This document shows, piece after piece, positions 7,850-36,996 of a stretch of 37,104 bases of DNA. How positions within the stretch are numbered: the first letter of the stretch is position 1; every line of letters begins with the position of its first letter. The position numbers and the translations under genes were made by a program. Below the pieces are notes generated by a model. The model made no database searches and was not told where the DNA came from. It worked only from the letters and a program-made list of their open reading frames with translations. This stretch comes from a virus, in the IMG/VR virus record IMGVR_UViG_3300037325_000237, positions 1 through 37,104 of that record, one strand, 5' to 3'.

Positions 7850-7893
7850 AGCTGGGCGGAATGCCTGGCGCGCTTGCATATCGGGAGGGGCCC

Positions 7894-9436: not shown

Positions 9437-10128
9437 GCCGCGCAAACCGATCCTCTGCAGTCATGCAGCAGCGCGATCCTTCCCTGGACAAAGTGGACGA
9501 CTTTCCAACGCCTATGTGGGCGACGCGCGCTGTGATCGAATGGTTGCGCGGCGCTGGGCGTGATCTGTCGGCTGACACCGTGCGCGAGCCCTGTGCCAAT
9601 CGGGGCTATATGGTCGCTGCCCTGGATGAGGGGTGCGCTTCCGTCGTCGCGTCTGATCTGATGGATTATGGCGTTGGCTTTCCTGTCGTCGACTACCTCG
9701 CCGGTCCGGTACCGGAGCTGGTCGACTGGACGTTCATCAATCCGCCTTTTGCATATGCGCAGGAATTCATTGATCGGGCGCGGCGGTCGTCACGCAAAGG
9801 CGTGGCGGTGTTCTGTCGCCTCGCCTTTGCCGAAGGTGCGACGCGGCATCGCGAGCTGTTTTCAGTCACGCCTCCTACCTTCGTCCTGCCGTTTTCCGAG
9901 CGGGTCGTGATCCATCGATCGAAGATGCGGCGCGCGGGAGAGCGGTATTGGGATGCGAAGGCAAACAAGGGCAAGGGCGGCTGGCGTAACGCGTCTACCG
10001 CTACCGCCTATTGCTGGATGATCTGGCTTTCCGAGGATGTGCCTTTGCGCCCGGCTCTCGATTGGATTGGGCCGTGCCGCGAGCGGCTCGAGCGCCCTGG
10101 TGACTACGAGGTGCGTGGCAATGTGTGA
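9433..10128 (+). CDS. SAM-dependent DNA methyltransferase-like protein (NPPF)
   Basis: A 231-aa protein with a methyltransferase-like fold. REPCANRGYM (about 54-63) corresponds to the SAM-binding motif I of adenine methyltransferases (compare EPSAGxG), ASDLMDYG to the acidic second strand, and DWTFINPPFAYAQEF (about 98-112) to the NPPF catalytic motif typical of N6-adenine enzymes. After motif IV the protein is shorter than most, and the target-recognition part is small. It may methylate phage DNA to escape host restriction, or mark it for replication. It overlaps its neighbours at both ends. Confidence 0.75.
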   Translation: MSRANRSSAVMQQRDPSLDKVDDFPTPMWATRAVIEWLRGAGRDLSADTVREPCANRGYMVAALDEGCASVVASDLMDYGVGFPVVDYLAGPVPELVDWTFINPPFAYAQEFIDRARRSSRKGVAVFCRLAFAEGATRHRELFSVTPPTFVLPFSERVVIHRSKMRRAGERYWDAKANKGKGGWRNASTATAYCWMIWLSEDVPLRPALDWIGPCRERLERPGDYEVRGNV

Positions 10129-10519
10129 GGACCTGTCCGACTTGCCGCGGTCGGCTGCTGAAATCGCAGAGGTCATCGGTCGTGAGCTGGCGCTCGATCT
10201 TATCGCCTCTCTGCCGCAGGCCGGCTCGCGCACATGGCGGCGCGGCCTCTACGTGCCAAAGACGCTCCCTGTCGATCACTGGCTTGTGCGCAAGCTGGGC
10301 TGGAAGATGGCCCAGCGTCTAAGCCGCGCCTTTGCGGGCATGATCCTGCAGCCGGCCAATTGCCGCGTGATCGAGCGGCGCTTTCACCACCAGGCAATTC
10401 CGGACCTCATTCGGGACGGCTTGCCTGTCGAAGAGGTGGCCGAGCTCACGCGGCTCTCGGCTTACCGCGTTCGCGAGATCGCCTCGCTTGCCGCTGTTCC
10501 CCAACTGGAAAGGGCATAA
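10121..10519 (+). CDS. Mor/C-like transcription regulator
   Basis: A 132-aa protein from the ATG at 10121, overlapping the preceding stop by 8 bp. The order of elements fits the Mor/C family of Mu-like phages: a helix followed by RRGLYVPKTLPVDHWLVRKLG in the dimerisation part, then a C-terminal helix-turn-helix (IRDGLPVEEVAELTRLSAYRVREIASL). Mor and C activate middle and late promoters. Here the gene ends two bases before the endolysin, first gene of the lysis and virion block, so it is a good candidate for the late activator. Family assignment is by pattern only. Confidence 0.68.
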   Translation: MCEDLSDLPRSAAEIAEVIGRELALDLIASLPQAGSRTWRRGLYVPKTLPVDHWLVRKLGWKMAQRLSRAFAGMILQPANCRVIERRFHHQAIPDLIRDGLPVEEVAELTRLSAYRVREIASLAAVPQLERA

Positions 10520-11739: not shown

Positions 11740-12039
11740 ATGTCGCAAAAAACTACTTTTGAGTGGCCGAAAAACTCCATTTCGTTTCGTTTTGGATTTT
11801 TGGTGTCTTGGTGCTGGCGTCATAGCCTGCGGCCTTTTGCGTGGCGTTTTAAGTTCGAGCGCGGCTCTTATCGCTACTTTCAAAACGAAATGACCGGCGA
11901 TCGCAAAGCGAAATGGATCGGTGCTGGATACTCCCCCGTCGACACCGATTGGCTTCGTTCTGCTCCGAGCGGCTCCGCCTGGTTCATTGCACCTTTCGTC
12001 GGTCGCGTTGATCTGGTCGCGGGAGGCAGCGTTGTCTGA
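11740..12039 (+). CDS. Small basic/aromatic protein, unknown function
   Basis: A 99-aa protein rich in Trp, Phe, Tyr and Arg. The central section (FKFERGSYRYFQNEMTGDRKAKWIGAGYSPVDTDWL) reads like a compact beta structure and is the best sign that the frame is real. The ATG has no obvious ribosome site. The stop overlaps the TTG start of the ParB-methyltransferase gene. Not recognised; it could assist DNA modification or packaging by position only. Confidence 0.5.
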   Translation: MSQKTTFEWPKNSISFRFGFLVSWCWRHSLRPFAWRFKFERGSYRYFQNEMTGDRKAKWIGAGYSPVDTDWLRSAPSGSAWFIAPFVGRVDLVAGGSVV

Positions 12040-14108: not shown

Positions 14109-14626
14109 TGGCAGGCGCCGGCAATCCTACCTATCCCGTCGGCACGATCGCAAAGCTGCTTATGCTCACGGATCGCCGGGTGCAGCAGCTGGCGAAAGAG
14201 GGCGTAATCCCGAAGGCGGAGCGCGGCCGGTATGATCTGGTCCCGTCTGTTCAGGGCTATATCCGGTATCTGCAATCGCTCGATGTCGGTCCTGGCGAGG
14301 GCCAAGAAGGCGCGATCAATTACCAAAGTGAAAAGGCGCGGCGCATGCGCGCGGATGCTGATCTTAAGGAGATGGCGGTGCTGCAGCTGCGCGGCTCGCT
14401 GATCAATGCCGAAGAGGCGGCGGCGGTGACGGCGCTGCTGATGTCGGAGCTGAAGACGAAACTTCTCAACAATGCGCCGGTGCGGATCGCGGCCGCAGGC
14501 AAATCCACCAAGACCGAGGCGGCTCTCAAGAAGATAATCAAAGCCGAGCTGTCGGAAATCATGGCCGGCATTGCGAAGACTGACCTTGTCGCCTTGATGG
14601 GGGAGCCTGCGTCCGATGGAGTATAG
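14108..14626 (+). CDS. Terminase small subunit (Nu1-like)
   Basis: A 172-aa protein. Residues 10-50 are a winged helix-turn-helix (VGTIAKLLMLTDRRVQQLAKEGVIPKAERGRYDL) as in lambda Nu1, which binds the packaging site. A long helical dimerisation region follows (residues 70-165), beginning with YQSEKARRMRADADLKEMAVLQLRG. It overlaps the large subunit gene by 11 bp, confirming the pairing. Confidence 0.87.
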   Translation: MAGAGNPTYPVGTIAKLLMLTDRRVQQLAKEGVIPKAERGRYDLVPSVQGYIRYLQSLDVGPGEGQEGAINYQSEKARRMRADADLKEMAVLQLRGSLINAEEAAAVTALLMSELKTKLLNNAPVRIAAAGKSTKTEAALKKIIKAELSEIMAGIAKTDLVALMGEPASDGV

Positions 14627-16511
14627 CCCAGCCGCGCACCGCATGATGGCCTCCGCCCTGGCCGCGCTGCAGCCGCCTCCGGATTTGAAGCCTTCGGTCT
14701 GGGCGGAGCGGTCGGTCTACATTCCGGTCGGCAACGCGATCCCTGGTTTGATCCGTTTCGACAACGCGCCTTATCAGCGCGAGCCGCTCGACATGACGGT
14801 CGATCCTACCTGTCAGCGTATCAGCCTGAAATGGGCCGCCCAGGTGGGCAAGACGCAAGTCGCGCTTTGTGCTCAGTCCTACCGGATTGCGATGGACCCA
14901 ACGTCGCAGCTGATGATGCAGCCGTCGGAAGGCGATCTGCAAACCTGGCTGCAGACGAAGTTTAATCCTCTGGTCGAGGCCAATCCCGAGCTCGAGAGCC
15001 GGATCGCGACTGCGCGGGGTCGTAAGGGCGTCAACAACACGCGCATGAAATCCTACCCAGGCGGGTTCATCATGTTCGCCTGGTCGGGTTCGCCTAAGAC
15101 GCAGCGGGGCAAGTCGGCACCCTTCGTCGTCGCGGATGAAACGGACGGCTACGATCGGACGGCCGAGGGCCATCCTGTCTCGCTGCTCTGGCAGCGGGCC
15201 GCGACCTTCGGGGATATGCGCAAGCTGCTGGAAATCTCGACGCCAACGGTGCGCGGCCTGTCCTGGATCGATGATGCTTACGAGCAGGGCGATCAGCGGC
15301 AGTTTCACGTCGGCTGTCCGCATTGCGGCGAGCCGCAAGTGATCATGTGGTCAAACGTCAAATGGGAAAAGGACGCGGACGGGACGCACCTTCCGATGTC
15401 GGCCTATTACGAGTGTTCGGCGCATGGCTGCGTCTGGTCTGATTCCGATCGGGTCGCGGCCGTCCGCGATGCTGAAAAGCTGGGCCACGGCTGGAAGGCC
15501 CAGAAGCCGTTCCTTGGCCACGCCAGCTATCATCTGTCGGAGCTCTATTCGTGCTTTCGTCGCCTGGGCGACATCGTGCAATCCTTCCTGGAAAAGAAGG
15601 CCAGCGACGATCTGCAAACTTTCGTCAACGTGTCCCTGGCTGAATGCTGGGAGGAAGAGGCGGAGCGGGTCGCGGCCGACGATCTAATGGCGCGGGCAGA
15701 AAGCTGGGGTGATAAAATCCCAGCCGGTGTCGCTTGCCTGACGGCCGGCATCGATATGCAGGAGGATCGCCTTGAGCTAGAGCTGGTCGGCTGGGGGCTG
15801 GGCGAGGAGTCCTGGTCGATCGACTATCAGGTATTTTGGGGCGATCCGATGAAGGACGACGTCTGGGAGCTGGTCTTCGACTTCCTGGCGCAAACCTATG
15901 AGACGGAAAGCGGGGCGACGCTGAAGGTCTCGGCTGCCGGCTTCGATACGGGTGGCTCGGGAGGCTTGACGCAGGCGGCTTACGAGCAGCTGCGCGGAAA
16001 GCATCGCCGTGGGTTCTATGCGCTGAAAGGTGGCAACCTTTGGGGAAAGCCTGTCGTGTCGGCTCCGAGCAAATCGCGCAGCGGCCGTCGATCGCGGCCG
16101 GTTATGCTGTTTTCCGTGGGTGTGAACGACACAAAGCTGACCATCCTGCGCCGCGCCAATATCTCGGTCGTTGGGCCTGGCTACTGCCACTTTCCGGTCG
16201 AGCGGGATCCGGAGTTCTTTCTTCAGCTGACGGCCGAGCAGCTGGTGACGAAAATGCGGCGCGGCTTCCCTGTCCGTGCCTGGCACAAAACGCGGGAGCG
16301 CAACGAGGCGCTTGATTGCCGGGTCTATGCCTACGCTGCTCTTAAAATCACAAACCCGAACCTGCCGCAGCGGCTGTCCCGCCTGGCACCGGCCGCGCCG
16401 GCTGCAGTTGAGCCGACCGAGGAGGAAGCGGGGAACGCGCCAGAGGAACAGAAGCGCTCGGCTCGCAATGCTGCGCGGCAGAGACGCCGGCGACGGACGT
16501 CTGGTCTTTGA
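14616..16511 (+). CDS. Terminase large subunit (GpA family)
   Basis: A 631-aa packaging motor and nuclease of the lambda GpA type. WAAQVGKTQ at 73-81 is the deviant Walker A, VVADETD at 171-177 the Walker B, and a Cys-pair zinc-like segment (CPHC, then C..C) follows near 230-265. The nuclease half starts near residue 365 (TAGIDMQEDRLELELVGWG). The last 50 residues are a low-complexity Ala/Glu/Arg tail, and the DNA there contains the first full copy of the 17-bp dispersed repeat (16430-16446). The length is close to lambda GpA (641). Confidence 0.93.
   Translation: MEYSPAAHRMMASALAALQPPPDLKPSVWAERSVYIPVGNAIPGLIRFDNAPYQREPLDMTVDPTCQRISLKWAAQVGKTQVALCAQSYRIAMDPTSQLMMQPSEGDLQTWLQTKFNPLVEANPELESRIATARGRKGVNNTRMKSYPGGFIMFAWSGSPKTQRGKSAPFVVADETDGYDRTAEGHPVSLLWQRAATFGDMRKLLEISTPTVRGLSWIDDAYEQGDQRQFHVGCPHCGEPQVIMWSNVKWEKDADGTHLPMSAYYECSAHGCVWSDSDRVAAVRDAEKLGHGWKAQKPFLGHASYHLSELYSCFRRLGDIVQSFLEKKASDDLQTFVNVSLAECWEEEAERVAADDLMARAESWGDKIPAGVACLTAGIDMQEDRLELELVGWGLGEESWSIDYQVFWGDPMKDDVWELVFDFLAQTYETESGATLKVSAAGFDTGGSGGLTQAAYEQLRGKHRRGFYALKGGNLWGKPVVSAPSKSRSGRRSRPVMLFSVGVNDTKLTILRRANISVVGPGYCHFPVERDPEFFLQLTAEQLVTKMRRGFPVRAWHKTRERNEALDCRVYAYAALKITNPNLPQRLSRLAPAAPAAVEPTEEEAGNAPEEQKRSARNAARQRRRRRTSGL
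16430..16446 (+). repeat. Dispersed 17-bp repeat, copy 1 (in terminase tail)
   Basis: GGGGAACGCGCCAGAGG, followed by AA. It lies in the Ala/Glu-rich C-terminal tail of the large terminase gene, read as GNAPEE. Confidence 0.9.
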
Positions 16512-17065
16512 TCGCGCGAGGTTTCGATTTGCAGTACTTCCCGTCCTCAATCGCAGCGGGTTTGACCTTCGCTGTCGATCTGGATTTGGACGATCATCCT
16601 GCTCCAGAGTGGGCTGTGATCGTGATCCTGGCTGGTCCTGAAAAGATCGAGCTGACGTCGGTCCCTTATGGCGATCTGCACCGGCTGTCTGTTCCGGCGA
16701 CGCAAACCACCAGCTGGGCGGGCGGTCTCTATGCGGCGTCTGTTCGTGCGGTATCTGGCGCGGATGTCGTCGAGGTGGACGCAGGGCAGGTCAAAATCAC
16801 GGCCGATCTGGCCAGCGTCGATGGCGTGGTTGATCCGCGATCCCATGCCCAGCGGATGTTGGACGCCATTGAGGCGGTTCTCGAAAAGCGGGCCTCCCTC
16901 GATCAGCAGTCCTACACGATCGCCGGCCGGTCCCTGGTCCGGACGCCAATCTTGGAGCTGCAAACGATGCGCGACGCGTATCGCAAAGAGGTGGGCCGGC
17001 TGTCTGCCAATGGAAAGCCGCGCCGGCTGCTGGGCCGCCGCATTAATGTGAGGTTCGGTGGCTGA
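16508..17065 (+). CDS. Head-joining protein candidate at the gpW position
   Basis: A 185-aa frame that begins with TTG overlapping the terminase stop (TTGA). The first half is beta-rich. The second half (RMLDAIEAVLEKRASLDQQSYTIAGRSLVRTPILELQTMRDAYRKEV) is a conserved helical block that I know from phage proteins encoded between large terminase and portal, where lambda has gpW. The N-terminal domain makes it longer than gpW (68 aa). It probably closes the head or joins head and tail. Confidence 0.65.
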   Translation: MIARGFDLQYFPSSIAAGLTFAVDLDLDDHPAPEWAVIVILAGPEKIELTSVPYGDLHRLSVPATQTTSWAGGLYAASVRAVSGADVVEVDAGQVKITADLASVDGVVDPRSHAQRMLDAIEAVLEKRASLDQQSYTIAGRSLVRTPILELQTMRDAYRKEVGRLSANGKPRRLLGRRINVRFGG

Positions 17066-18699
17066 TGTTTGGATTTGGTAAACGGTCAAAGGCCGACGTC
17101 GTCACGCGGGCCGATCCACCAATGCAGGCCGATCCGGTGTCGGCCGTGGTTGGCACAACGAGCGGGCTTCGGATTCGCCGGACGCGGAGCCTCACGCCTG
17201 GCGGGCGCGACCTCGGTCCTGCGGTTTCGTTTATGTCTTCGACGCCGATCTCCACCGATGCGTTGATCGATCGCAATCAGCGGGTGCTGGTCGCGCAGTC
17301 GCGGCAGCAAGCCACGACCAACGATTATATGAAGTCGTTCCTTCGGATCGCGGAGCGCAGCATCGTCGGTGCCAACGGCATTATCCTGCAGGCGCAGTCG
17401 AAGCTGCGCGATGGCAAGATGGACGCGAATGCTAACACGGCGATCGAGCTGTGGTGGGACGAGTGGTGCCGCGCTGAAAACTGCGATGTGACCGGCAAGC
17501 GAAACTTTCGCCGGCTCTGCAAGGCACTCGTCGGATCGGCGGCGAAGGACGGCGAGTTCATCGTCCGCGAAGTGCGCGGCAAGGACGCGGGTCCGATGCT
17601 GTATGCGCTGCAGGTCATCGATCCGCAGCGGTGTCCCGTCGATTACAACGTGGATAGCCTGGGAGGCGGTCGCTTCATCCGGCAGGGCATTGAGTTCAAT
17701 CGCGCCGGCCGGCCTTTGGCCTATTTCTTCTCAACCGATAATCCGTCTTTAAATGGCTATACGCATGGCGGCATGTCGCTCGAGCGTGTGCCGGCGCAGC
17801 AGATCATTCACGGCTTTATCGAGGACTTGCTTGGCCAGCGGCGCGGTCTGCCCTGGGCGGCGACGGCGCTGTGGCGTCTGGGCATGCTGGATGGGTTTGA
17901 AAAGGCGGCGCTCAAAAATGCGCGGTCGTCCGCATCCCTCGGTGGTTTCATCGAATGGGAGGCCGGCGAGGGGCCGGATATCGACGATGATCTTGCTGAC
18001 GAGGAGCTTGTTTTTGAGGCGGAGGAGGGGCTCTATCAAGAGCTGCCGCCTGGCGCGCGGATCAAGAACGTGCCGAGCCTGTATCCTACCGGCGAGTTCA
18101 CGCCTTTCCATAAGGCGATGCTGCGCGGTGCCGGTGCCGGCATGGGCGTGTCCTATGTCTCGTTTGCCAACGATCTTGAGGGCGTGAATTTCTCGTCGAT
18201 CCGGCAAGGCGTCCTGGACGAACGCGACCACTGGATGGACCTGCAGGAGTGGTTGATCGAGGTGCTGGTCGATCGCGTGTATCGCGCGGCGCTCGAGCCG
18301 GCTTTGCTAATGGGCAGGGTCGTTGCCAACGGTGTGCGGCTGCGTCCAGAAAACCTGTCTCGCCACTACGCTGTTCGCTGGCAGCCGCGCCGCTGGCCTT
18401 GGGTCGATCCGACCAAGGATATCGCGGCCGAGGTCACGGCGAAGAATAACCTTTTGACTTCGCCGTCCGAAATCATCCAGCGGCGCGGCGGTGATCCGGA
18501 GACGGTCTGGCGCAGCTACGCGCAGGATATCCAAGGCATGCGGGACGCTCAAATTCCGGATGAGTTCATCATGGCTGCCGTGCTCGGTGTCGCGCCGGCT
18601 TCAAACCCAAAGGCCGGTCAGGCCAAGTCCAGCGCGTCGACGGAAGATGCGCCGGACGATCAATCCGATAAGCAGGAGACCGACGATGTCGAAGATTAA
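17065..18699 (+). CDS. Portal protein, lambda GpB family
   Basis: A 544-aa portal with the lambda-type features: an N-terminal basic segment, RNQRVLVAQSRQQATTNDYMKSFLRIAERSIVGANGI, the core IHGFIEDLLGQRRGLPWAATALWRL near residue 250, and the block AGAGMGVSYVSFANDLEGVNFSSIRQGVLDERD near residue 355. The dodecameric portal sits at the capsid vertex and docks terminase. Its ATG overlaps the previous stop (TGATG) and its end overlaps the capsid gene by 14 bp. Confidence 0.93.
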   Translation: MFGFGKRSKADVVTRADPPMQADPVSAVVGTTSGLRIRRTRSLTPGGRDLGPAVSFMSSTPISTDALIDRNQRVLVAQSRQQATTNDYMKSFLRIAERSIVGANGIILQAQSKLRDGKMDANANTAIELWWDEWCRAENCDVTGKRNFRRLCKALVGSAAKDGEFIVREVRGKDAGPMLYALQVIDPQRCPVDYNVDSLGGGRFIRQGIEFNRAGRPLAYFFSTDNPSLNGYTHGGMSLERVPAQQIIHGFIEDLLGQRRGLPWAATALWRLGMLDGFEKAALKNARSSASLGGFIEWEAGEGPDIDDDLADEELVFEAEEGLYQELPPGARIKNVPSLYPTGEFTPFHKAMLRGAGAGMGVSYVSFANDLEGVNFSSIRQGVLDERDHWMDLQEWLIEVLVDRVYRAALEPALLMGRVVANGVRLRPENLSRHYAVRWQPRRWPWVDPTKDIAAEVTAKNNLLTSPSEIIQRRGGDPETVWRSYAQDIQGMRDAQIPDEFIMAAVLGVAPASNPKAGQAKSSASTEDAPDDQSDKQETDDVED

Positions 18700-20716
18700 T
18701 TTTGCGACCTTGAGCTGCGCTTTGGTCGGGGCCGCGATGGTGCGGTCCCTGACGCCGGAGCAGCTGAATGGAAACCGTGGCGCGGGTGCGCTGCATCGCA
18801 CCGCGCGGGTGCGGAAGTTTGACGAAGAGGCGCGGACCGTCGAGGTCGCGTTTTCCTCCGAAGAGCCGGTGTCGCGCTGGTTCGGTTCGGAAGTCCTAGA
18901 TCATGGTCCTGGCGCTGTTGATATGTCGCGGCTTCTCGATGGCGCGGCCGTCCTGTGGAATCACAACACCGACGTGCAGATTGGCGTCGTGGAATCGGCC
19001 GAGGTCGGCAGCGATCGTCGCGGTCGTGCGGTGCTGCGCTTTGGTCGCGGTGCGCGGTCCGAGGAGATTTTCCGCGACGTGATCGATGGCGTGATCCGCC
19101 ATGTGTCGGTGGGCTATTCAATTCGCGCCATCAAAACCGAAGAGAAGGAAGGCGAGGCCGATGTCGTCACGGTGACGGAGTGGCAGCCTTTCGAGATTTC
19201 TCTGGTCGCGGTGCCGGCCGACAGCTCAGTCGGTGTCGGCCGTTCTGCGGCGGGGAACGCGCCAGAGGCACCGGCAGCACCGTCTGCCGATAGTGAGACC
19301 ATCATTTCTGGGGGCGAGCCTGCTTCCCGCAATCAAGAGGATAGTTCGAAAATGAAAACCAAAGTCATGCGGGACGCCGGTGGTAACCTGGTCCGCGCCA
19401 AAGTTGACGACGCCGGCAAGATCATTGAAGTGATCGAAACTCTCGAGGCGGCGTCCGAGACGCGCGAGCTGGTCCGCGCCGGTACGCAAGCCGAGCACGA
19501 ACGCACCGCGTCGCTGCTGGAGCTGGGCGAGCAGCACGGCGCACCGGCAGATGCCGCGCGCGCTATTCGTGAGAATACCTCTGTCGCTGATTTCACGCGC
19601 CACCTTCTGTCCACTTTGAGCGAGCGTCGCGGCGGCGGCGGCTCCAACGATGCGCTGGACGACGATGCCGGCGTGATCGGGATGTCGGATGCCGACGCGG
19701 GCCGGTTCTCTTTTTTGCGGGCGCTGCGGGCTCTGGCGAATCCGAACGATCGCCGCGCGCAAGAAGACGCCGCATTCGAGCGCGAAGCCTCCGAGGCGGC
19801 AGCGCGTAGCTCCGGCCGCGAAGCGCAAGGCATCATGGTTCCGGCCGACGTCCTGCGCCGCGCTCTGAACACTGGCACCGGGGGCATCGCTCCTGGCGAC
19901 ACTGGCGGCTATGCGATCGCCACTGACCTGCACTCGCAGTCGTTCATCACCATGCTGCGCAATCGTTCGGTCCTGCTGGGCATGGCGACGCCGCTGGCCG
20001 GCCTGACGGGTAACGTCGATATTCCGACGCAGGCCGGTGGTGGCCAGGGCTTCTGGCTTGGCGAGGACGAGGACGCTGGCGAGAGCAACATTGATCTGGG
20101 CAATGTCCAGCTATCGATGAAAACCGTTGGCACTTACTATGAAATGACGCGCTCGTTCCTGAAGCAGAGCTCGATCGACGGCGAGGCGCTGGTGCGACGT
20201 GATATCGCTCAGTCCCTTGGCCTGACGATGGACTATGCCGGCTTTTACGGCACCGGCTCCGCCACCATGCCGCTCGGCCTGGCGAACCTGTCGGGCATCA
20301 ACGCTGTGCCATTTGCGGGTGTTCAGCCAACCTATGCCGAGCTGGTGCAGATGGAGAGCGAGATCGCGTCTGACAACGCTGACGTGGATTCGATGGCTTA
20401 TGTCGGCAACGCGGCCTTCCGTGGCGCTATGAAGACCACCCAGAAGTTCGCCGGCACCAACGGCCAGCCGGTCTGGGAAGAGGGCGGCACCGTGAACGGC
20501 TACCGCGCTGAAATCACCAACCAGACCACTTCGGGCGATACGTTCTTTGGCAACTTTGCGGATATGCTGGTCGGCATGTGGGGGGGCCTCGATCTGACGG
20601 TCGATCCTTATTCGATGTCCAAGAAGGGCCGTCTGCGGATCGTCGCATTCCAGGACGCCGATATTGCCTACCGCCATGTCGAGTCCTTCGCCCTGGGCCG
20701 CAAGCCGGTCGTCTAA
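18686..20716 (+). CDS. Prohead protease fused to HK97-type major capsid protein
   Basis: A 676-aa fusion from the ATG at 18686. Residues about 35-185 are a U35-type prohead protease with probable catalytic His93 (WNHN) and Ser141 (HVSVGYS). Residues 190-230 are a flexible Ala/Pro linker; it contains the second 17-bp repeat, read as GNAPE. Residues 230-390 are a helical scaffold-like delta domain, and residues about 395-676 the HK97-fold capsid (GGYAIATDLHSQSFITMLRNRSVLLG to the end). Self-cleavage would free the shell protein. An internal ATG at 19351 lacks a ribosome site. Confidence 0.93.
   Translation: MSKINFATLSCALVGAAMVRSLTPEQLNGNRGAGALHRTARVRKFDEEARTVEVAFSSEEPVSRWFGSEVLDHGPGAVDMSRLLDGAAVLWNHNTDVQIGVVESAEVGSDRRGRAVLRFGRGARSEEIFRDVIDGVIRHVSVGYSIRAIKTEEKEGEADVVTVTEWQPFEISLVAVPADSSVGVGRSAAGNAPEAPAAPSADSETIISGGEPASRNQEDSSKMKTKVMRDAGGNLVRAKVDDAGKIIEVIETLEAASETRELVRAGTQAEHERTASLLELGEQHGAPADAARAIRENTSVADFTRHLLSTLSERRGGGGSNDALDDDAGVIGMSDADAGRFSFLRALRALANPNDRRAQEDAAFEREASEAAARSSGREAQGIMVPADVLRRALNTGTGGIAPGDTGGYAIATDLHSQSFITMLRNRSVLLGMATPLAGLTGNVDIPTQAGGGQGFWLGEDEDAGESNIDLGNVQLSMKTVGTYYEMTRSFLKQSSIDGEALVRRDIAQSLGLTMDYAGFYGTGSATMPLGLANLSGINAVPFAGVQPTYAELVQMESEIASDNADVDSMAYVGNAAFRGAMKTTQKFAGTNGQPVWEEGGTVNGYRAEITNQTTSGDTFFGNFADMLVGMWGGLDLTVDPYSMSKKGRLRIVAFQDADIAYRHVESFALGRKPVV
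19252..19268 (+). repeat. Dispersed 17-bp repeat, copy 2 (in protease-capsid linker)
   Basis: Identical 17 bases, followed by CA. It lies in the linker between the protease and capsid halves, again read as GNAPE. Confidence 0.9.
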
Positions 20717-20723
20717 ATCATAG

Positions 20724-20745
20724 GCCGATCCGCTCGCGGGTCGGC
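20724..20745 (+). terminator. Hairpin after the capsid gene, possible attenuator
   Basis: GCCGATCC (20724-20731) pairs with GGGTCGGC (20738-20745), including one G-U pair, around the loop GCTCGC. TTTCCCCTTTTCCC follows instead of a clean T-run. It probably ends part of the transcripts or protects the capsid message 3' end, so that capsid RNA is more abundant than the genes behind it. Confidence 0.55.
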
Positions 20746-20777
20746 TTTCCCCTTTTCCCTGTAACGTAGGTGTCAAA

Positions 20778-21164
20778 ATGGCAGAAAAGAAAAAGATCGA
20801 GCTGCGGCTCACCTCGGCTGTCGCGATCGGCGGTAAGATCGTGCTTCCTGGCAGCGGCAAGTCCAAGGCCGACTGCACTGTGTCCGAAACCCTGGCAAAG
20901 AACCTTTTGCACCGCGGCAAAGCCGAGCTGTTTGGCGACCAGGATTTGGCAGGCACCGGCATCGTGGATCCTGCCGACACCGATTCCGGCGCAAAGAACG
21001 GCTTTCCGCCTCCGGCCAAAGACGGCCAGAACCGCTCCGGCAGTCCGCTGGTGCAGCCGCAAGGCGGCGCAGAGCAGGGAGCTAATGCAACGCTTGGTGC
21101 TGGCTCTGGCGCTGCGCCTGCCAAGCCAGCCGCCAAAGGCAAAACTGCCGGCGCGGCGAAGTAA
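20778..21164 (+). CDS. Small head-module protein, unknown function
   Basis: A 128-aa protein. The first 55 residues have a compact fold pattern (IELRLTSAVAIGGKIVLPG, then SETLAKNLLHRGKAEL) that I associate with short phage proteins placed after the capsid gene. The last 70 residues are Gly/Ala/Pro-rich and disordered, ending in a lysine-rich tail. It could be a decoration or head-completion component. AGG ribosome site before the ATG is weak. Confidence 0.6.
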   Translation: MAEKKKIELRLTSAVAIGGKIVLPGSGKSKADCTVSETLAKNLLHRGKAELFGDQDLAGTGIVDPADTDSGAKNGFPPPAKDGQNRSGSPLVQPQGGAEQGANATLGAGSGAAPAKPAAKGKTAGAAK

Positions 21165-21169
21165 CGCTT

Positions 21170-21499
21170 ATGCCTGCCCCTGATTGGGAAAACCTCGACG
21201 CCTTCTTTGGGCAGGACGATTTCGCCGTGCCGGTTACCATCCGGCGCGGCGAGGTCGTCTTGTGGCAGGGCTCGGCCATTTTTGATGATGGCAACGCGCC
21301 AGCCGACTTAGGCGACCTTGAGCACGATCTGTCGTCGCCGCATTTGATCTGCTCGGCCGATGATGTCGCGGACGTCGACGATGGCGACGTCGCTGTTGTT
21401 GCTGGTAAGGTCTGGGATGTGATGGGCGAGCCGGAGCGCGACGGCACCGGCCTGGCGCGCGTGATCCTGGCAAAGCCAAACGTCGCTTTCCGTGCTTAA
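21170..21499 (+). CDS. Head-tail joining protein (gpFII-like)
   Basis: A 109-aa protein with the lambda FII style: WENLDAFFGQDDFAVPVTIRRG at the start, a FDD strand, and a final strand series in which an operator-like GKVWDVMGEPERDGTGLARVIL hairpin appears. FII attaches to the capsid portal side and provides the tail-docking surface. The next gene starts with GTG 8 bp before this stop. Confidence 0.7.
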   Translation: MPAPDWENLDAFFGQDDFAVPVTIRRGEVVLWQGSAIFDDGNAPADLGDLEHDLSSPHLICSADDVADVDDGDVAVVAGKVWDVMGEPERDGTGLARVILAKPNVAFRA

Positions 21500-22046
21500 C
21501 TTCGACATTGATGCCGGCGAGCTGGAGCGGCTCTCCACTCAGTTCGATTCCTCGTACCGCGAGATTGATCTGGCCTATGGTCGCGCGCTACGCCGAACAG
21601 CCGGCAACATTCGGCGGCTGTCGTCAAAGGGCCTGCAGTCCGAGCTGGGCTTGCGAAACGCCACGGCGCTACGTCGCCGCATCAAAGAATTTCGCATGCG
21701 CAAGGGCGGGGGGCAGTCGATCCAGATGTGGTTCGGTGCAAACGATCTGCCGATTTCCGCTTTCAAGGGGCGGCCGCGCGCGGTGCCTGGCGGGGTCGAG
21801 TTCAACGGTACCACTGTGCTGGGCGCTTTCTTCGCAAAGCCGGGTGGTAAAAAACGCGGGGTCTATGTCCGCAAGGGCCCGGATCGGATACCGTTCCTCG
21901 AGGCCATGATGCCGGTGGCCGATCGCATGATGATCTATCTCGAGGACGAGGTGTTTGTGGATATCGAGGGCCTGTTCTTTCGCAACTTCGAGTCCGAAAT
22001 TCGGGCGCGGACTATTCTGGGCGTTGGTGGAAAGTATAGCAAATGA
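21492..22046 (+). CDS. Minor tail protein Z-like / tail completion protein
   Basis: A 184-aa protein with a GTG start overlapping the previous gene. The sequence pattern (ALRRTAGNIRRLSSKGLQSELGLRNATALRRRIKEFRMRKG, then a beta-rich part with WFGANDLPISAFKG and GAFFAKPGGKKRGVYVRKG) is that of the GpZ/minor tail protein Z family. It completes the connection between head and tail. It ends by ATGA overlap with the next gene. Confidence 0.75.
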   Translation: MLNFDIDAGELERLSTQFDSSYREIDLAYGRALRRTAGNIRRLSSKGLQSELGLRNATALRRRIKEFRMRKGGGQSIQMWFGANDLPISAFKGRPRAVPGGVEFNGTTVLGAFFAKPGGKKRGVYVRKGPDRIPFLEAMMPVADRMMIYLEDEVFVDIEGLFFRNFESEIRARTILGVGGKYSK

Positions 22047-22567
22047 GCGAATTGGATTTAGCGGCCGCGTTGGCTGGCATCGTGTTGAAGCTGTCGGAAG
22101 CGTTTCCGGATGTGAACGTGTGCGAGGCTGAAGGTGTGGAGCCGGCCGAGCTGCCGGTGCCGGCTTTGATCTGCCAAATCTCGGAGATCGAGCCGGATCC
22201 TGACCGCGAGCCGCTGACGGGCCAGTTTCCTTGCATGGTCCGCGTCCAGGCGCGGATTGTCCTGGGACATCGGACGCCGACGGTTCGGATGCAAACGCTG
22301 CAGCTGGCCGGCGCGGTCGCGGCCATCGTTCACAACCACCGGTTTGGTTCTGAATGGGGCGGCGCAAAGGTCTTTGCGGTTGAGCCAGATGAATTCGCGC
22401 CGGAGGCCACTCGCTTCGATGTCTGGTTGGTCGAGTGGAGCCATGCGGCACGGCTGGGCGCGGGCTTCGCGCTGCCGGATGAATTCCAACCGACCGAGGT
22501 GCTGGTGTCGAATGCACCGCAGATCGGCCTCGATCATGAAGCGGAGTATGCGGAGGTGTCGCCGTGA
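22043..22567 (+). CDS. Tail terminator-like protein
   Basis: A 174-aa protein with alternating helix and strands (LAAALAGIVLKLSEAFPDVNV, CMVRVQARIVLGHRT, AAIVHNHRF, EATRFDVWLVEWSHAARLG). This topology and the position between protein Z and the baseplate spike fit a tail terminator/completion protein that caps the tube and sheath. No exact family is claimed. The next gene begins with GTG inside its last codons. Confidence 0.6.
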   Translation: MSELDLAAALAGIVLKLSEAFPDVNVCEAEGVEPAELPVPALICQISEIEPDPDREPLTGQFPCMVRVQARIVLGHRTPTVRMQTLQLAGAVAAIVHNHRFGSEWGGAKVFAVEPDEFAPEATRFDVWLVEWSHAARLGAGFALPDEFQPTEVLVSNAPQIGLDHEAEYAEVSP

Positions 22568-23043
22568 GCAATCTGGCTCTTTCCGAAGTCATGCGGATCG
22601 TCGAGCGCATGGTTATCATCGGCACGGTGACTGCCTTCGATCCGGCTACCGCAAAGGCGCGGGTGTCACTCGGTCCTGGCGTGGAATCCGGTTGGCTGGC
22701 AATCGCCCAGATGGGCTCCAAAGATGTGCGGATTTGGGTGCCACCTGTCGTCGGCTCGCAGGTTGTTGTCTTTTCGCCTGGCGGGGATACGGCGCGCGGC
22801 ATCGTTTATCCTGGTCCATATGACGGCGCTGCGCCTGACGATCGCAGCAGCTCGATTCGCCTTTCGATGCCTGGCGTTGATATCGCTGTCGATGGCGGTG
22901 TCGCCACGGTGTCGCTCACCACTATGAACGTGACCGGAAACATCATCGTGGACGGCGATGTGATCGCCTCTGGCGTTAGCCTGGTCAACCACGTGCATGG
23001 CGGCGTCGATCCCGGCTCGTCTTCGACGGCTCCGCCCAGCTAG
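22564..23043 (+). CDS. Baseplate assembly/spike protein (gpV-like)
   Basis: A 159-aa protein of the P2 gpV type. An OB-like domain lies in the first 90 residues (GTVTAFDPATAKARVSLGPGVESGWLAIAQMGS, then PPVVGSQVVVFSPGGDTARGIVYPG), followed by a short beta helix (GNIIVDGDVIASGVSL) and the tip HVHGG, whose paired His residues bind iron in gpV-type spikes. It would form the trimeric membrane-piercing needle. Its TAG is directly followed by the third 17-bp repeat. Confidence 0.87.
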   Translation: MSNLALSEVMRIVERMVIIGTVTAFDPATAKARVSLGPGVESGWLAIAQMGSKDVRIWVPPVVGSQVVVFSPGGDTARGIVYPGPYDGAAPDDRSSSIRLSMPGVDIAVDGGVATVSLTTMNVTGNIIVDGDVIASGVSLVNHVHGGVDPGSSSTAPPS

Positions 23044-23059
23044 GGGAACGCGCCAGAGG
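23043..23059 (+). repeat. Dispersed 17-bp repeat, copy 3 (after gpV)
   Basis: Identical 17 bases starting at the G of the gpV stop TAG and followed by AA. It fills part of the 48-bp gap before the next gene. Confidence 0.9.
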
Positions 23060-23091
23060 AAGCCCGCGGCTGCTGCTGCCAGTTTGCGACT

Positions 23092-23430
23092 ATGCGTGGA
23101 ATGAGTAGCAGCAACGGATTGAGCTTGGGTGGCATGTCGCATTTGCGGCAGTCGATCCGTGACATCCTATCCACTCCGATCGGCTCGCGTGTTTTGCGTC
23201 GCAGCTACGGGTCTCGGCTCTCTGAGCTTGTTGATAGGCCTTATTCTTCGGGGCTGCGGCTAGAAGTGATTGCAGCAACGGCCGAGGCAATCGCGACTTG
23301 GGAGCCGCGCATATCCGTTAAAAATGTCAGCCTTTCGCAATTCGGCGGGGGCCGGATTGAGGTCTCGATGACGGCCGAGCTGATCGCCTCGTCACAGGTT
23401 TTGGAAATTGAAGGGATAGTGGTGTCATGA
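23092..23430 (+). CDS. Baseplate protein gpW/gp25-like
   Basis: A 112-aa protein with the gp25/gpW baseplate pattern: GGMSHLRQSIRDILSTPIGSRVLRRSYGSRL (about residues 14-44), then ATAEAIATWEPRISVKNVSL and a two-strand end. It forms part of the baseplate wedge in contractile tails. The ATG at 23101 (nine bases on) is an equally possible start; neither has a strong ribosome site. The end overlaps gene J by ATGA. Confidence 0.85.
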   Translation: MRGMSSSNGLSLGGMSHLRQSIRDILSTPIGSRVLRRSYGSRLSELVDRPYSSGLRLEVIAATAEAIATWEPRISVKNVSLSQFGGGRIEVSMTAELIASSQVLEIEGIVVS

Positions 23431-24320
23431 GTGCGTTTACCGCAATCGATCTTTCGAAGTTGCCAGCGCCGTCTGCCGTCGAGGTTTTAGATGTTGAGGC
23501 AATTCTGGCCCAGCTGAAAGCCGATGTTATCGCACGGGATCCTTCTCTTGCCGAGGCGTTGTCTCTGGAAAGTGAGCCGCTGGTCAAACTCCTTGAGGCC
23601 GCGTCTTACCGCGAATTATTGTTGCGGCAGCGCATCAATGAGGCGGTGCGCGCCACGATGCTCGCCTTCGCTGGTGGCGCTGATCTGGATCATTTAGGAT
23701 CGCTTTTTTCGATCGAGCGGGCCATATTGGTTCCAGCTGATATCGATGTGCTCCCCCCTACCTTGGCGATCTATGAATCCGACGATCGGTTTAGAAACCG
23801 TATTCAGCTGGCGCTAGAAGGCTTTTCAACGGCTGGCACTCTTGGGGGGTATCGGTTTTTCGCCCTATCCGCCTCCGGAGCGATCGCAGATGTTTCTATC
23901 CTCAATCCTTCGCCAGGCATCGTTCGTGTGGTTTTGCTGTCGAGGGACGGCGATGGTTCCGCAAGTGATGACTTGCTCGAGACAGTGCAGCGCCGTCTTA
24001 GTGCGGAGGAGGTCCGTCCATTGACCGATCTGGTCGAAGTGGTGTCAGCGTCGGTGGTGCCTTATTTCGTATCAGCGCGGCTCAAGATTTTTGGCGGGCC
24101 GGATCCTGATGTTGTTGTGGCATCGGCTTTGGCTGCGGTAGAGCAATTCGTTTCTGACAACCGGCAAGTCGGGCGCAGCATACCGCGCGCTGGTCTGATC
24201 GCAGCGCTGTTTCAGTCCGGTGTGGAAAATGTCGATTTAATTTCACCTGCGTCTGACGTGGTGACTGAGGGGGATCAGGCTGGCTTTTGCGCGGATATTT
24301 TGATCGCGGTGGATCAATAA
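23427..24320 (+). CDS. Baseplate assembly protein J-like
   Basis: A 297-aa protein of the P2 gpJ/Mu gp47 family. Typical segments are LLKLLEAASYRELLLRQRINEAVRATMLAFAGGADLDHLG near residues 50-90, RFRNRIQLALEGFSTAGTLGGYRFFALSAS near 120-150, and RPLTDLVEVVSASVVPYFVSARLKIF. It is the second wedge protein and clamps the baseplate around the spike. P2 J is 302 aa, so the length fits. Confidence 0.92.
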   Translation: MSAFTAIDLSKLPAPSAVEVLDVEAILAQLKADVIARDPSLAEALSLESEPLVKLLEAASYRELLLRQRINEAVRATMLAFAGGADLDHLGSLFSIERAILVPADIDVLPPTLAIYESDDRFRNRIQLALEGFSTAGTLGGYRFFALSASGAIADVSILNPSPGIVRVVLLSRDGDGSASDDLLETVQRRLSAEEVRPLTDLVEVVSASVVPYFVSARLKIFGGPDPDVVVASALAAVEQFVSDNRQVGRSIPRAGLIAALFQSGVENVDLISPASDVVTEGDQAGFCADILIAVDQ

Positions 24321-24971
24321 ATGTTGGGTCATGTCTCTCTTTTGCCGCCAAATGCGACGGATTTGGAGCGATCGATCGAGGCGTCGATGGCGAACTTTCT
24401 CGCGTTGGATGTTCCTGTTGCGGCGAACGCTCGTGCGGCGACGGCTGCGGCGGATCATCTGGCGTGGCTGGCGTGGGCGCTGTCGATCGATACCTGGCGC
24501 AGCGAATGGCCTGACGATGTGAAGCGCGCAAATATTGCCGCTTCGGTTGAGGTACATCGAACCAAGGGAACGCGCGGCGCTGTTGATAAGGCTTTACGGG
24601 CGTTTGGTTTTGAGCCGCTAATTATCGAGTGGTTTGAGAATGGCGCCGCTCCTTTCACATTTTTGGTTAAGCTGTCAGCTCAAAACGTCGTTGCCAGCAG
24701 TTTCCGCGTTGATGCGGCCTGGCTCGATTTTGTGTCGCAAGTCATCGAAAATACAAAACCGGCGCGCGCTCAGTTTGAGGTTCTGGCGACGGAGGGTCTT
24801 CGCTCCGTTTCCTACAAGCGTGTTGCGATGAGCGAGCGGCAAACCGACGCGTTTCGCATTGCGCCGGTTGCCGCGCCATCGGCTCTCGAAACGACCGCTT
24901 TTGGCCGTGCAGCATCGCGCGACGCTATGAACGATGCGCTGGTCATGAATTTTGAAAGGAGCGCTGTCTGA
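24321..24971 (+). CDS. Tail protein I-like
   Basis: A 216-aa protein of the P2 gpI family: LLPPNATDLERSIEASMANFLALDV at the start, DHLAWLAWALSIDTWRSEWPDDVKRANIAASVEVHRTKGTRGAVDKALRAFG at residues 48-100. It is a baseplate wedge protein that links J to the tail fibre. It ends one base inside the next start (TGATG). Confidence 0.9.
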   Translation: MLGHVSLLPPNATDLERSIEASMANFLALDVPVAANARAATAAADHLAWLAWALSIDTWRSEWPDDVKRANIAASVEVHRTKGTRGAVDKALRAFGFEPLIIEWFENGAAPFTFLVKLSAQNVVASSFRVDAAWLDFVSQVIENTKPARAQFEVLATEGLRSVSYKRVAMSERQTDAFRIAPVAAPSALETTAFGRAASRDAMNDALVMNFERSAV

Positions 24972-25753
24972 TGCCGCAATCGATTATTACCAATCTCGGG
25001 GAGTCTCTCTTGGCGGCCGCCGCGGGGAGCACCTCCGCCGTTGAAATCACGCACGTTGCATTTGGAGACGGCAACGGCGCAGCCTACGCGCCCGCGTTTT
25101 CTCAGGTAGCGTTGAAAAAGGAGCGCCTCCGGGTTCAGATCGAAAGCCAGCAGCTTTTGGAAGGGAACGGCTGGCGCATCAAAGCCGTCGTGCCTGCCGA
25201 CACGGCTCCTTTTGACGTCTGCGAAATCGGATTCTTTACCGCTGCCGGCGAGCTGATCGCTTTGTGGGCGGGGGTGGATGTAACCTCTCGACGGGTCGGT
25301 ATTGTGACTTACGAGATCAACCACTTCCTCGACTTCTCGGGCGTCGCTGATGGCCTGCTCATCATCAATGCGCCGGATGACGAGCTGTTCAATCATGCCG
25401 TTTTGAATCTTGCAGCCGATGCGACCGGGGCGATTAACCTTTTGCATGAAAGACGGACGCGCAAGGAGCAACTGCTGCAACGCGACGCGGAAATGTCGCT
25501 AGGTGCGCCAGTCGGTATGATTTCGGCATTTGGCCAGAAGGCCGCACCGGATGGCTGGCTGCCCTGCGATGGCCGTGATGTCAGCCGATCTGCTTACGCT
25601 GACCTTTTCGCGGCCCTTGGTACGCTCTGGGGCGCTGGCGATGGCGTGGCCACATTCACGCTACCCGATTTTTCCGGCGACTTTCGTTTCGTCCCGACTG
25701 CCGTTGTCGGCCGTCAGCGTAGCGTCGCGATCAATTATTGCATTCGCACTTAA
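24971..25753 (+). CDS. Tail fibre/collar protein
   Basis: A 260-aa fibre protein. The N-terminal 160 residues have the DUF3751-like fibre attachment pattern (AAAGSTSAVEITHVAFGDGNGAAYAP, DVCEIGFFTAAGELIALWAG, LDFSGVADGLLIINAPDDELF). Residues 178-235 are a tail collar domain (GMISAFGQKAAPDGWLPCDG, then LFAALGTLWGAGDGVATFTLPDFSG). It is short for a P2-like gpH, so the receptor-binding part is probably provided by the next gene. Confidence 0.82.
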   Translation: MPQSIITNLGESLLAAAAGSTSAVEITHVAFGDGNGAAYAPAFSQVALKKERLRVQIESQQLLEGNGWRIKAVVPADTAPFDVCEIGFFTAAGELIALWAGVDVTSRRVGIVTYEINHFLDFSGVADGLLIINAPDDELFNHAVLNLAADATGAINLLHERRTRKEQLLQRDAEMSLGAPVGMISAFGQKAAPDGWLPCDGRDVSRSAYADLFAALGTLWGAGDGVATFTLPDFSGDFRFVPTAVVGRQRSVAINYCIRT

Positions 25754-25763
25754 GGAGCTTCCT

Positions 25764-26573
25764 ATGAGCATTTCAGATATCAACGCCGCAGCCATCGCTC
25801 TTAATGAGCTGCGTGCTCGTCTTAATGGCTATCTTGACGATCTAGATGCCGGAAACGCAGCCGCTATCGCAGCTGCGCAAGCGCAGCTTCAGGCGCGCCA
25901 AGCAGCCTATGACGCACTTGCGGCAAATCTAGAGGATGTCGCTATCTCAGCCGCCTCTCGGATCGTCTATCTTGATCCGAACACCGGCGACGATCTGCAG
26001 GACGGAAGCGTCAACGCTCCTGTTAGAACCTTGCCCGTTGCTTATGCGATGGCGCAGCCTGGGGGCGATCTAACTATCCGCATTCGCGGCGTAGCGTCCG
26101 AGGTGGCATTCGTCGGTGCAGCAGCATGCAACGCTGGCCGTGTTTTCTTTTCTAACGTGGATGGCATCGGTATTGATCGATCTACCTTTCCAAAAATTAC
26201 TGGAGGTTCTTCGTATTTTCGGGGTTCGCATGTCGAGTTTTCAGGAGTGAATTTAGATGCCACCACTGGCTTTCTATTTAAAGCGTTTGGCCGGATGTCT
26301 GTAAAAGTTTTACGGTCTCTGATTGTTGCTGGTGATGGGGGAGTATTTATCCATCACTCATCGGAGCCGGGTCATATCGATTTAAGCCTGACGCATGCAG
26401 AAATTTCGGATGCGGTTGGTGCATCGTTACCGCGCGTTTTGATTGCCTCTACATGGACCTTTCAGGGGACGAGCTTGAGCTTACCAGTCGGCAAATCAAT
26501 GGCTGATTATATCAACGTGACGCGAGCTGCAGACGGATCGCCACTGAATGGCATTTCATCCCTGACAATCTAA
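25764..26573 (+). CDS. Probable receptor-binding tail tip protein
   Basis: A 269-aa protein with an AAGGAG ribosome site. Residues 1-75 are a coiled-coil-like helix rich in Ala, Leu and Gln (AIAAAQAQLQARQAAYDALAANL). After a DPNTGDD linker, residues 85-269 are beta-rich with short repeated strands, in the manner of a beta helix or pectate-lyase-like adhesin (IRGVASEVAFVGAAACNAGRVFF and later turns). The DNA of the second half is clearly more AT-rich than the tail genes around it. Best interpretation: trimeric host-recognition tip. Sequence alone does not give the receptor. Confidence 0.62.
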   Translation: MSISDINAAAIALNELRARLNGYLDDLDAGNAAAIAAAQAQLQARQAAYDALAANLEDVAISAASRIVYLDPNTGDDLQDGSVNAPVRTLPVAYAMAQPGGDLTIRIRGVASEVAFVGAAACNAGRVFFSNVDGIGIDRSTFPKITGGSSYFRGSHVEFSGVNLDATTGFLFKAFGRMSVKVLRSLIVAGDGGVFIHHSSEPGHIDLSLTHAEISDAVGASLPRVLIASTWTFQGTSLSLPVGKSMADYINVTRAADGSPLNGISSLTI

Positions 26574-26585
26574 GGACGTATAAAT

Positions 26586-27086
26586 ATGCAATTTGACATC
26601 GATTTTGACGGACGCAGCTATTTTAGCTTATCGGCAGCTGACGCGGCCGCTGTGGGTATTCCATCAACGGTGATTGCTGCCCAGTTGAAACAAAAGGCTC
26701 GATCAGAAATTGAAGCTACTGCCAACGCCAGGCGTGCGGCAGTGGTCAGTGCATCGGCGGGAAAACTTGCCGAGTACCGTTTTAAAGAAGAGATCGCTCG
26801 GGATGTCGCGAGTGCGGATCCTGACGAATTAGCATTAATCGATCGCGAGGCCGTGGCGTTCGGTATGGATCAATCCACTTTTTTGAGCCTCATCTCGGAA
26901 AAGGCAAAAGCCTACCGGCTGATTGCGCTGTTGATTGGTGCGCTCGAAGCCGAATCCAAGGCTGCGGTTGCGGTGTTGCCTGATGATCCTGACGATATCG
27001 AGCGGTTTGTCCGCGAAGACCTAGAGGCAGGTCGGCGTGAAGCCGAGGCGGCGTTTCAGGCCGATCTGGCTGCACTGGCTGGCTAA
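26586..27086 (+). CDS. Fibre-linked protein, possibly assembly chaperone
   Basis: A 166-aa acidic, mainly helical protein (residues 30-80 and 100-160) with a short strand-like start (FDIDFDGRSYFSL). Its position behind the tip gene is the usual site of fibre assembly chaperones. No family is recognised. Its stop overlaps the next ATG (TAATG). Confidence 0.5.
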   Translation: MQFDIDFDGRSYFSLSAADAAAVGIPSTVIAAQLKQKARSEIEATANARRAAVVSASAGKLAEYRFKEEIARDVASADPDELALIDREAVAFGMDQSTFLSLISEKAKAYRLIALLIGALEAESKAAVAVLPDDPDDIERFVREDLEAGRREAEAAFQADLAALAG

Positions 27087-27436
27087 TGAGCCTCTACACG
27101 GATGCTGCCAATTGGTGCGAGCCCATCGGTGGCATCCGTTATCAAGTTTCGGAGCCTGTTTCGTTTGAAGTGGGCCGGAAGGGGTCAGGTCTATTGGTAT
27201 GTGTCCCTGAAGGCACTGTCTTCGACTGCTCTATTCCTCGCTTGCTGCAATCTGTCCTCAGTCCGCACGATCTACGATTTTTGAAGGCAGCCGCTCTGCA
27301 CGATGTACTTCTAGGCCGCAAATGGGATCGTGTGACTGCAGCTGCGGTTTTTCATGATGCGCTTCGAAGCGATGGCGTCGGGCGTCTGCAACGCCTTCTC
27401 ATGTGGATGGCGGTTAGTTTGTATCGCTGGCAATAG
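27086..27436 (+). CDS. DUF1353 family phage protein
   Basis: A 116-aa protein with the DUF1353 pattern: VCVPEGTVFDCSIPRLLQSVLSPHDLRFLKAAALHDVLL near residues 38-76, then AAAVFHDALRSDGVGRLQRLLMWMAVSLYRW at the end. The conserved HD (in LHD) could bind metal. Members are common in phage tail or lysis regions; function is unknown. The C-terminus is hydrophobic (LLMWMAVSLYRW). Confidence 0.78.
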   Translation: MSLYTDAANWCEPIGGIRYQVSEPVSFEVGRKGSGLLVCVPEGTVFDCSIPRLLQSVLSPHDLRFLKAAALHDVLLGRKWDRVTAAAVFHDALRSDGVGRLQRLLMWMAVSLYRWQ

Positions 27437-27483
27437 CGGCGCTGTCGCTCTTACGGGGAACGCGCCAGAGGAATAGCGGCGCT
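27432..27483 (+). repeat. 12-bp direct repeat flanking 17-bp repeat copy 4
   Basis: AATAGCGGCGCT occurs at 27432-27443 and again at 27472-27483, exactly 40 bp apart. The 28 bp between them end with the fourth 17-bp repeat. The pattern resembles a target-site duplication or a tandem-slip event. The rest of the 88-bp gap carries only the GGAGAGGT ribosome site of the sheath gene. Confidence 0.85.
27455..27471 (+). repeat. Dispersed 17-bp repeat, copy 4 (before sheath gene)
   Basis: Identical 17 bases followed by AA, in the 88-bp gap between the DUF1353 gene and the tail sheath gene. It is enclosed by a 12-bp direct repeat. Confidence 0.9.
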
Positions 27484-27524
27484 CGCTGCGTGATCTTGCT
27501 TCCAACCACATCGGAGAGGTGATC

Positions 27525-36978: not shown

Positions 36979-36996
36979 CCTCGTGCGGCACCAAAA
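36979..36996. repeat. Right attachment core (attR)
   Basis: An exact 18-bp copy of the tRNA 3' end and following A residues, without the rest of the tRNA. Host DNA resumes after it. The 108 bp that follow contain an inverted repeat TGTCAG/CTGACA, perhaps part of the original tRNA terminator, and no complete gene. Confidence 0.93.

Follow-up and report, generated by a model that had tools for sequence, protein, structure and literature searches.

A repeated 17-bp sequence as the predicted box of a Mor/C-like activator at four late phage promoters

The stretch analyzed here, referred to as the window, comprises all 37,104 nucleotides at positions 1 to 37,104 of the IMG/VR virus record IMGVR_UViG_3300037325_000237. 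It reads as a temperate-type phage with an integrase, a lambda-type terminase, a portal, a capsid-protease, and a P2-type tail. Within this genome, a 17-bp sequence, GGGGAACGCGCCAGAGG, recurs in four exact copies. Judged by sequence, the 17-mer, together with the AA that follows it where present, is very probably the DNA box recognized by a Mor/C-like late activator that the phage itself encodes, located at four late promoters. The boxes belong to a family of related boxes that occupies the same places in many phages, varies in concert within each phage, precedes a −10 element at a fixed distance, stands in phase with an ATG at one site, and is accompanied by an activator gene.

The four copies begin at 16430, 19252, 23043, and 27455, all on the plus strand, and three of them continue directly with AA on the 3′ side, as a preliminary description of the window had reported. 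Even with up to three mismatches allowed, the window contains only these four. Chance, which that description had ruled out, is excluded by dinucleotide-preserving shuffles: 100 of them contained 0.29 matches on average and never as many as four. Box 1 (16430..16446) lies in the tail of the terminase large subunit (open reading frame [ORF] 14616–16511), ahead of a head–tail joining gene. Box 2 (19252..19268) lies in the linker of the protease-capsid ORF (18491–20716), ahead of an in-frame ATG at 19352. Both are coding and are read in the same frame, as had been observed before. Boxes 3 and 4 are noncoding. The first base of box 3 (23043..23059) is the last base of the gpV stop codon, and a gpW-like baseplate gene lies downstream. 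Box 4 (27455..27471) is found between an ORF ending at 27436 and the tail sheath gene. A profile was built from 159 sites in other phages, without the window and the loci L007, L010, L018, and L019; it scores the four copies at 29.8 to 39.7 bits and the next best position of the window at 10.2; in 60 random windows, the best score averaged 9.5 with a maximum of 20.5. An 11-bp partial copy in the endolysin gene (11292–11302), noted in the preliminary description, was rejected as a fifth box, as it has no −10 element and a low profile score. Upstream of some box copies stands the sequence CCTCTGGCG, which apparently pairs with the box. Scans of the window for tRNAs and repeats yielded nothing further on the box itself.

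The preliminary description had called for a search of related phages and a comparison of flanks. The exact 17-mer is present in 13 IMG/VR stretches, of which 11 (nine contigs) are close relatives; in these 11, the copies keep the same four contexts and the flanks differ. The remaining two, L012 and L015, show by eye no −10 element at the right spacing and were taken as chance occurrences. A near-identity DNA search of the phage collection gave no match; protein searches did find relatives. In distant relatives, retrieved by terminase searches, the exact 17-mer is absent, and each phage has its own near-relative of the box at its sites. Examples of such private boxes are GGGGAACCCGCCAGAGG in L020, GGGGGAACCGCCAGAGG in L022 and others, GGAAAAAGCGCCAGAGG in L038 and L040, GAACCACTGCCAGCGGAGC in Chromohalobacter (L060), and GAAAACCCACAAGAGG in Limnohabitans (L061). 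A motif-blind search for a recurring 16-mer from the terminase tail gave a score of at least 3 in 65 of 87 loci; a control stretch from this gene did so in 2 of 87. The best 16-mer was box-like in 73 of the 87. This search and the box survey covered loci with at least 3.5 kb past the terminase; the flanks end 10 kb from the terminase, and the sheath site is thus out of view in most loci. Several loci represent one prophage in two collections (e.g., L020/L046, L030/L047, L064/L104, L070/L109, L076/L120, and L055/L118). All duplicates are counted in the box survey, the set of 265 sites, the activator profile counts, and the start-codon counts given below. The motif-blind search omitted L017 (not in its list anyway), L046, L047, L088, and L114 and kept the other duplicate pairs.

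The boxes of one phage change in concert. Circularity was avoided by picking sites by an 8-base core plus a downstream A and T and then comparing the nine bases to the left. This selection gave a site in 88 of 118 loci and 261 sites in total, 249 of them on the plus strand; the reversed core gave six. Sites of different classes within one phage differ by 1.59 of nine bases (n = 147), and sites of the same class between phages by 3.48 (n = 2531), both for 48 nonredundant phages out of the 74 with at least two sites. All within-phage pairs average 1.94 of nine, compared with an average of 3.67 and a minimum of 3.27 in 2000 label shuffles. An alternative figure, 2.05 within phages versus 5.35 of 19 bases, is biased by a 14-of-16 selection; hence, the nine-base comparison is preferred. 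Concerted change is what a single trans-acting reader of all sites would cause, and the boxes would be private to each phage because one protein must recognize all of them. A separate observation concerns L039, which encodes a distant activator homolog. It contains an unrelated 22-mer three times, at 5279, 14124, and 21208, with a −10-like hexamer, TACTCT or TAAAAT, 17 nt after each copy and an ATG just after one. Herein, the letters are wholly changed and the layout is retained, an extreme case that fits the logic of an activator paired with its box.

The same layout occurs in cultured phages with a related terminase and a P2-like tail gene order, namely ep3 (Jilinvirus, Iiscvirinae), Mano, Mica, Persinger, FoX1, MQ-4, and Alexa. 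Each differs from the window in its box letters. Six of them contain five copies of their own 16-mer, all five being identical in FoX1, Mica, and Persinger, and Alexa contains three. These 16-mers score 6 to 12, as opposed to 1 to 5 for the controls (four stretches in each phage and two in Persinger, which accounts for the 5). The boxes lie at the end of an ORF just before the lysis genes, in the terminase tail, in the capsid ORF, at the V/W junction, and before the sheath gene; those of Alexa are at the terminase, capsid, and sheath. In Mano, FoX1, Mica, Persinger, and MQ-4, the phages with a listed protein match, the ORF before the lysis genes is the activator. The records of the cultured phages that were examined have no promoters annotated at the boxes.

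Downstream of the box, a second conserved element follows at a fixed distance. Among 164 de-duplicated sites, conservation drops to background just past the box and then rises to an A in 92% at +22 and a T in 89% at +26, with an A in 57% at +33. These sites were selected by the box alone, and the downstream A and T were not used for choosing: 265 sites were reduced to 236 by requiring 14 or more matches out of 16, and to 164 by removing those at least 70% identical. A conserved A and T four bases apart correspond to positions 2 and 6 of a σ70 −10 hexamer (A−11 and T−7), so that +33 is the expected transcription start. Counted from this predicted start, the box would span about −49 to −31. The boxes thus show the arrangement of Mor/C-dependent promoters at the level of sequence, with a putative activator site over the −35 region, a −10 element, and no −35 element. 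In the window, all predicted −10 elements are on the plus strand. Promoter 1 (AATGCT, 16467..16472; predicted start ∼16479) precedes the head–tail joining gene, promoter 2 (GATAGT, 19289..19294; predicted start ∼19301) the internal ATG of the capsid ORF, promoter 3 (CAGTTT, 23080..23085; predicted start 23092) the gpW-like baseplate gene, and promoter 4 (GATCTT, 27492..27497; predicted start ∼27504) the sheath gene, with its likely ATG at 27525. The in-frame ATG at 19352 lies 51 nt past the predicted start of promoter 2 with AGAGGA upstream and is a possible independent start of the capsid protein.

From this arrangement, we infer binding, activation, and start sites as follows. The activator, presumably a dimer as in Mu, would sit at about −49 to −31 and replace the −35 element. 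Once bound, it would let the σ70 RNA polymerase of the host use a weak −10 element (xATxxT) 20 nt downstream. The four boxes would in this way start four nested late transcripts, one each for head–tail joining and the portal, the capsid, the baseplate from gpW onward, and the sheath and tube of the tail.

At the gpV/gpW junction, the predicted promoter is fused to a start codon. The gpW-like baseplate gene (23092..23430, plus strand) begins with an ATG that coincides with the predicted transcription start of promoter 3. Of 49 baseplate sites, 42 have an ATG that begins 33 to 35 nt past the box; in nearby DNA, an ATG would fall on three given positions with a probability of 0.047. The counts for a start codon at +32 to +36 are 1 of 82 for terminase sites, 20 of 70 for capsid sites, 5 of 43 for sites located 3 to 7.5 kb upstream of the terminase end, 2 of 7 for those far upstream, and 2 of 8 for the others. 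The A of the baseplate ATG follows T−7 by 7 nt, equaling +1, in 30 assignments, by 8 nt (+2) in nine, and by 6 nt in two; herein, two sites have no −10 element, and one that fits two phases is counted twice. The annotated gpW start is the box-spaced ATG in ep3, FoX1, Mica, and MQ-4. In Mano and Persinger, it is annotated 15 and 9 nt upstream, respectively, and an in-frame ATG is present at the expected place; Alexa has no box at this junction. In L037, L110, L122, and L131, the predicted start of the capsid site likewise falls on an ATG. Since the gpW ATG falls on the predicted start, the baseplate mRNA beginning with gpW is predicted to be leaderless.

The candidate reader of the boxes is a Mor/C-like late transcriptional activator encoded at 10121..10519 on the plus strand. 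Counted from the likely ATG, the protein has 132 residues, whereas the mechanical ORF opens at 10037. Its match to PHROG_836, the family of late transcriptional activators, has an E value of 4.6e-17; this family is also matched by Mu C and Mor and by all 44 of 44 diverse homologs, 22 of which match Pfam Mor. By profile search, homologs are present in 70 of 118 loci. The count follows the length of DNA available upstream of the terminase: 57 of 58 loci with at least 10 kb, 9 of 11 with 4.5 to 10 kb, 3 of 9 with 3 to 4.5 kb, and 1 of 40 with less. The one missing is L058, in whose kin, such as L070, the activator lies ∼10 kb out from the terminase. Among the matches listed, ORF 10037–10519 is the most widespread nonstructural ORF of the window (at least 64 loci). 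It is located directly ahead of the endolysin ORF; in Mano, a gene named Mor-like in its record precedes the holin, and in Mu, C precedes the endolysin. The predicted fold is confident, with a mean pLDDT (predicted local distance difference test) of 93.2, and ends in a helix-turn-helix (HTH). The HTH of the model aligns with Mu C in a transcription complex over 51 residues with a Z score of 6.7, which ties with other HTH proteins. Mor (1RR7) is absent among the matches listed by Foldseek and VIA-align 2, where generic HTH proteins dominate. Box distance correlates with activator distance once terminase distance is given (partial correlation 0.26), a value as high as this appearing in none of 2000 permutations.

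In Mu, the binding site of Mor spans −51 to −36 of a promoter with a −10 and without a −35 element, according to PMC4287176. C serves as the activator of four late promoters, and neither it nor Mor can substitute for the other, each being specific to its own promoters (PMC4461284 and PMC4287176). The system described here resembles that of Mu (C at Plys, PI, PP, and Pmom; Mor at Pm) in having an activator of the same wider family, a box upstream of and over the −35 region, a −10 without a −35 element, and multiple late promoters that serve the lysis, head, and tail units. It differs in that the box letters are unrelated, the box has no clear full dyad, boxes lie inside coding linkers, each phage has a private box, and a start codon is fused to the baseplate promoter; moreover, no box follows the activator gene in the window. 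In phage P2, several activator-dependent late promoters likewise serve the head, baseplate, and sheath units. Their activator, Ogr, is a zinc finger protein, which is a different activator with a different site from the Mor/C type. Neither a paper on this box, on the late promoters of these phages, or on a leaderless gpW nor one combining the terms Iiscvirinae, promoter, and transcription was found in the literature searched, which is weak evidence since most subscription journals lie outside its coverage. The term late promoter is absent from the main text of PMC11990801.

Several observations weigh against an activator box of the Mor/C type. Concerning the promoters, the −10 element of promoter 3, CAGTTT, is a poor match. 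The 164-site profile shows by inspection no evident full dyad, only an inner CC-N6-GG symmetry. The box lies a few bases nearer to the start than the Mor site of Mu. In Mica, the annotated sheath start is only 25 nt past the box and thus upstream of the predicted start. In the motif-blind search, 22 of 87 loci score below 3, and the window contains four of the five box classes, lacking the pre-lysis ORF box of the six cultured phages. Concerning the activator, the window protein itself falls below the Pfam Mor match level, and its profile compared with Mu C and Mor alone gives a weak 5% and 9% probability. A profile search of Protein Data Bank sequences lists neither of them, and Foldseek with the model returns no match with an E value below 0.001, Mu C being second at 0.41. 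The partial correlation between activator and box is modest, that of the terminase given the activator comes close to it (0.24), and the stretches of the activator that correlate best (0.34–0.35) lie outside the HTH, which itself reaches 0.23 to 0.28.

Part of this bears on an unlikely alternative, in which the boxes mark late promoters and are read by another phage factor, either σ-like or a different HTH protein. The modest covariation would suit it, as would the further HTH proteins encoded in the window and a weak resemblance of the activator's HTH to σ region 4. However, the near-universal presence of a Mor/C homolog in loci with 10 kb upstream, its spread beyond that of any other nonstructural gene among the matches listed, and the action of its Mu relatives at the same promoter position favor the Mor/C-like activator as the reader. 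A signal acting at the level of late mRNA, such as antitermination, processing, or stability, is distinctly improbable. All four window copies do lie on the transcribed strand; however, an A and a T conserved at the spacing of a −10 element, together with an ATG that tracks the −10 phase, are features of promoters, and at gpW, the box would fall outside the predicted mRNA.

The preliminary description had offered a boundary for module exchange, a minute mobile repeat, a host repeat, and a protein-binding site as options. It had placed the copies where an insertion is harmless, and two sites are indeed in coding linkers; the sites as a whole are rather where the next structural genes want promoters. 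The copies do lie between functional modules, and identical repeats could incidentally aid recombination. Yet phages of many hosts retain the same places with letters that differ and co-vary per phage, the −10 and, at one site, the ATG stand at fixed distances, and the terminase box keeps a constant frame in 89 of 90 loci. A recombination boundary or mobile repeat is therefore scarcely credible, and these features, along with the fitting activator family, likewise speak, within a record of viral DNA, against a host repeat and support the binding site. Least tenable of all, and close to negligible, is conservation of protein sequence only (GNAPE in disordered linkers): boxes 1 and 2 and the constant terminase frame would agree with it, but it is contradicted by the noncoding boxes 3 and 4 and by private variants common to coding and noncoding sites of one phage.

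The window has several further features. A tRNA-Thr lies near one end, and approximately the last 18 bases of its region are copied near the other. The repeats of the tRNA-Thr 3′ end (96–127 and 36965–36996, the right copy beside the integrase) are probable attachment sites. Short GCCGTGTCGCAAAA repeats with inverted-repeat character at 8197–8330, inside the replication-initiator ORF (7861–8763), are possibly origin iterons. In addition, the window encodes a ParB-N domain fused to an N6/N4 DNA methylase (11921–13423) and, on the opposite strand, a C5 cytosine methylase (3434–4765).

In several relatives, extra boxes occur on either strand outside the late operon, ahead of short cassettes with a similar G+C-rich, structured leader of ∼85 nt. 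Leader loci on the plus strand are L030:1554-1648, L030:1848-1942, L048:2552-2646, L028:2301-2395, and L095:1629-1723; those on the minus strand are L030:4618-4712, L048:5395-5489, L082:5085-5179, L022:1988-2082, and L104:1614-1708. The alignment of these 10 leaders contains 14 consensus pairs, four of which have changes on both sides in some sequence, and its total covariation term is slightly unfavorable (+0.61). Base pairing is possible between an ATCCCGC in the leader and a GCGGGAT located at the start codon. After 8 of 12 leaders examined follows a protein of 37 to 57 residues that appears by eye to span the membrane. The 159-site profile scan of the window revealed no extra boxes or such cassettes.

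Taken more broadly, it is somewhat more probable than the opposite that a wide group of tailed phages of Proteobacteria controls its late genes through activator–box pairs recoded by lineage, giving naturally orthogonal switches, together with a leaderless gpW unit and, in some marine-type relatives, separate late cassettes of a structured leader and a tiny membrane protein under these promoters. With an activator and its boxes as the explanation, an odd repeat becomes a testable late-gene circuit for a large, little-studied phage group that has cultured members on Escherichia coli. The rule of a box with a −10 element at fixed spacing would allow late promoters to be found from sequence, including those within coding linkers. 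Through the fusion of promoter and start codon, a structural gene becomes a conserved candidate for being translated without a leader in Gram-negative hosts. Finally, the activators and their boxes would form a natural set of related but differing protein–DNA pairs, in which the evolution of specificity may be followed when several sites change together.

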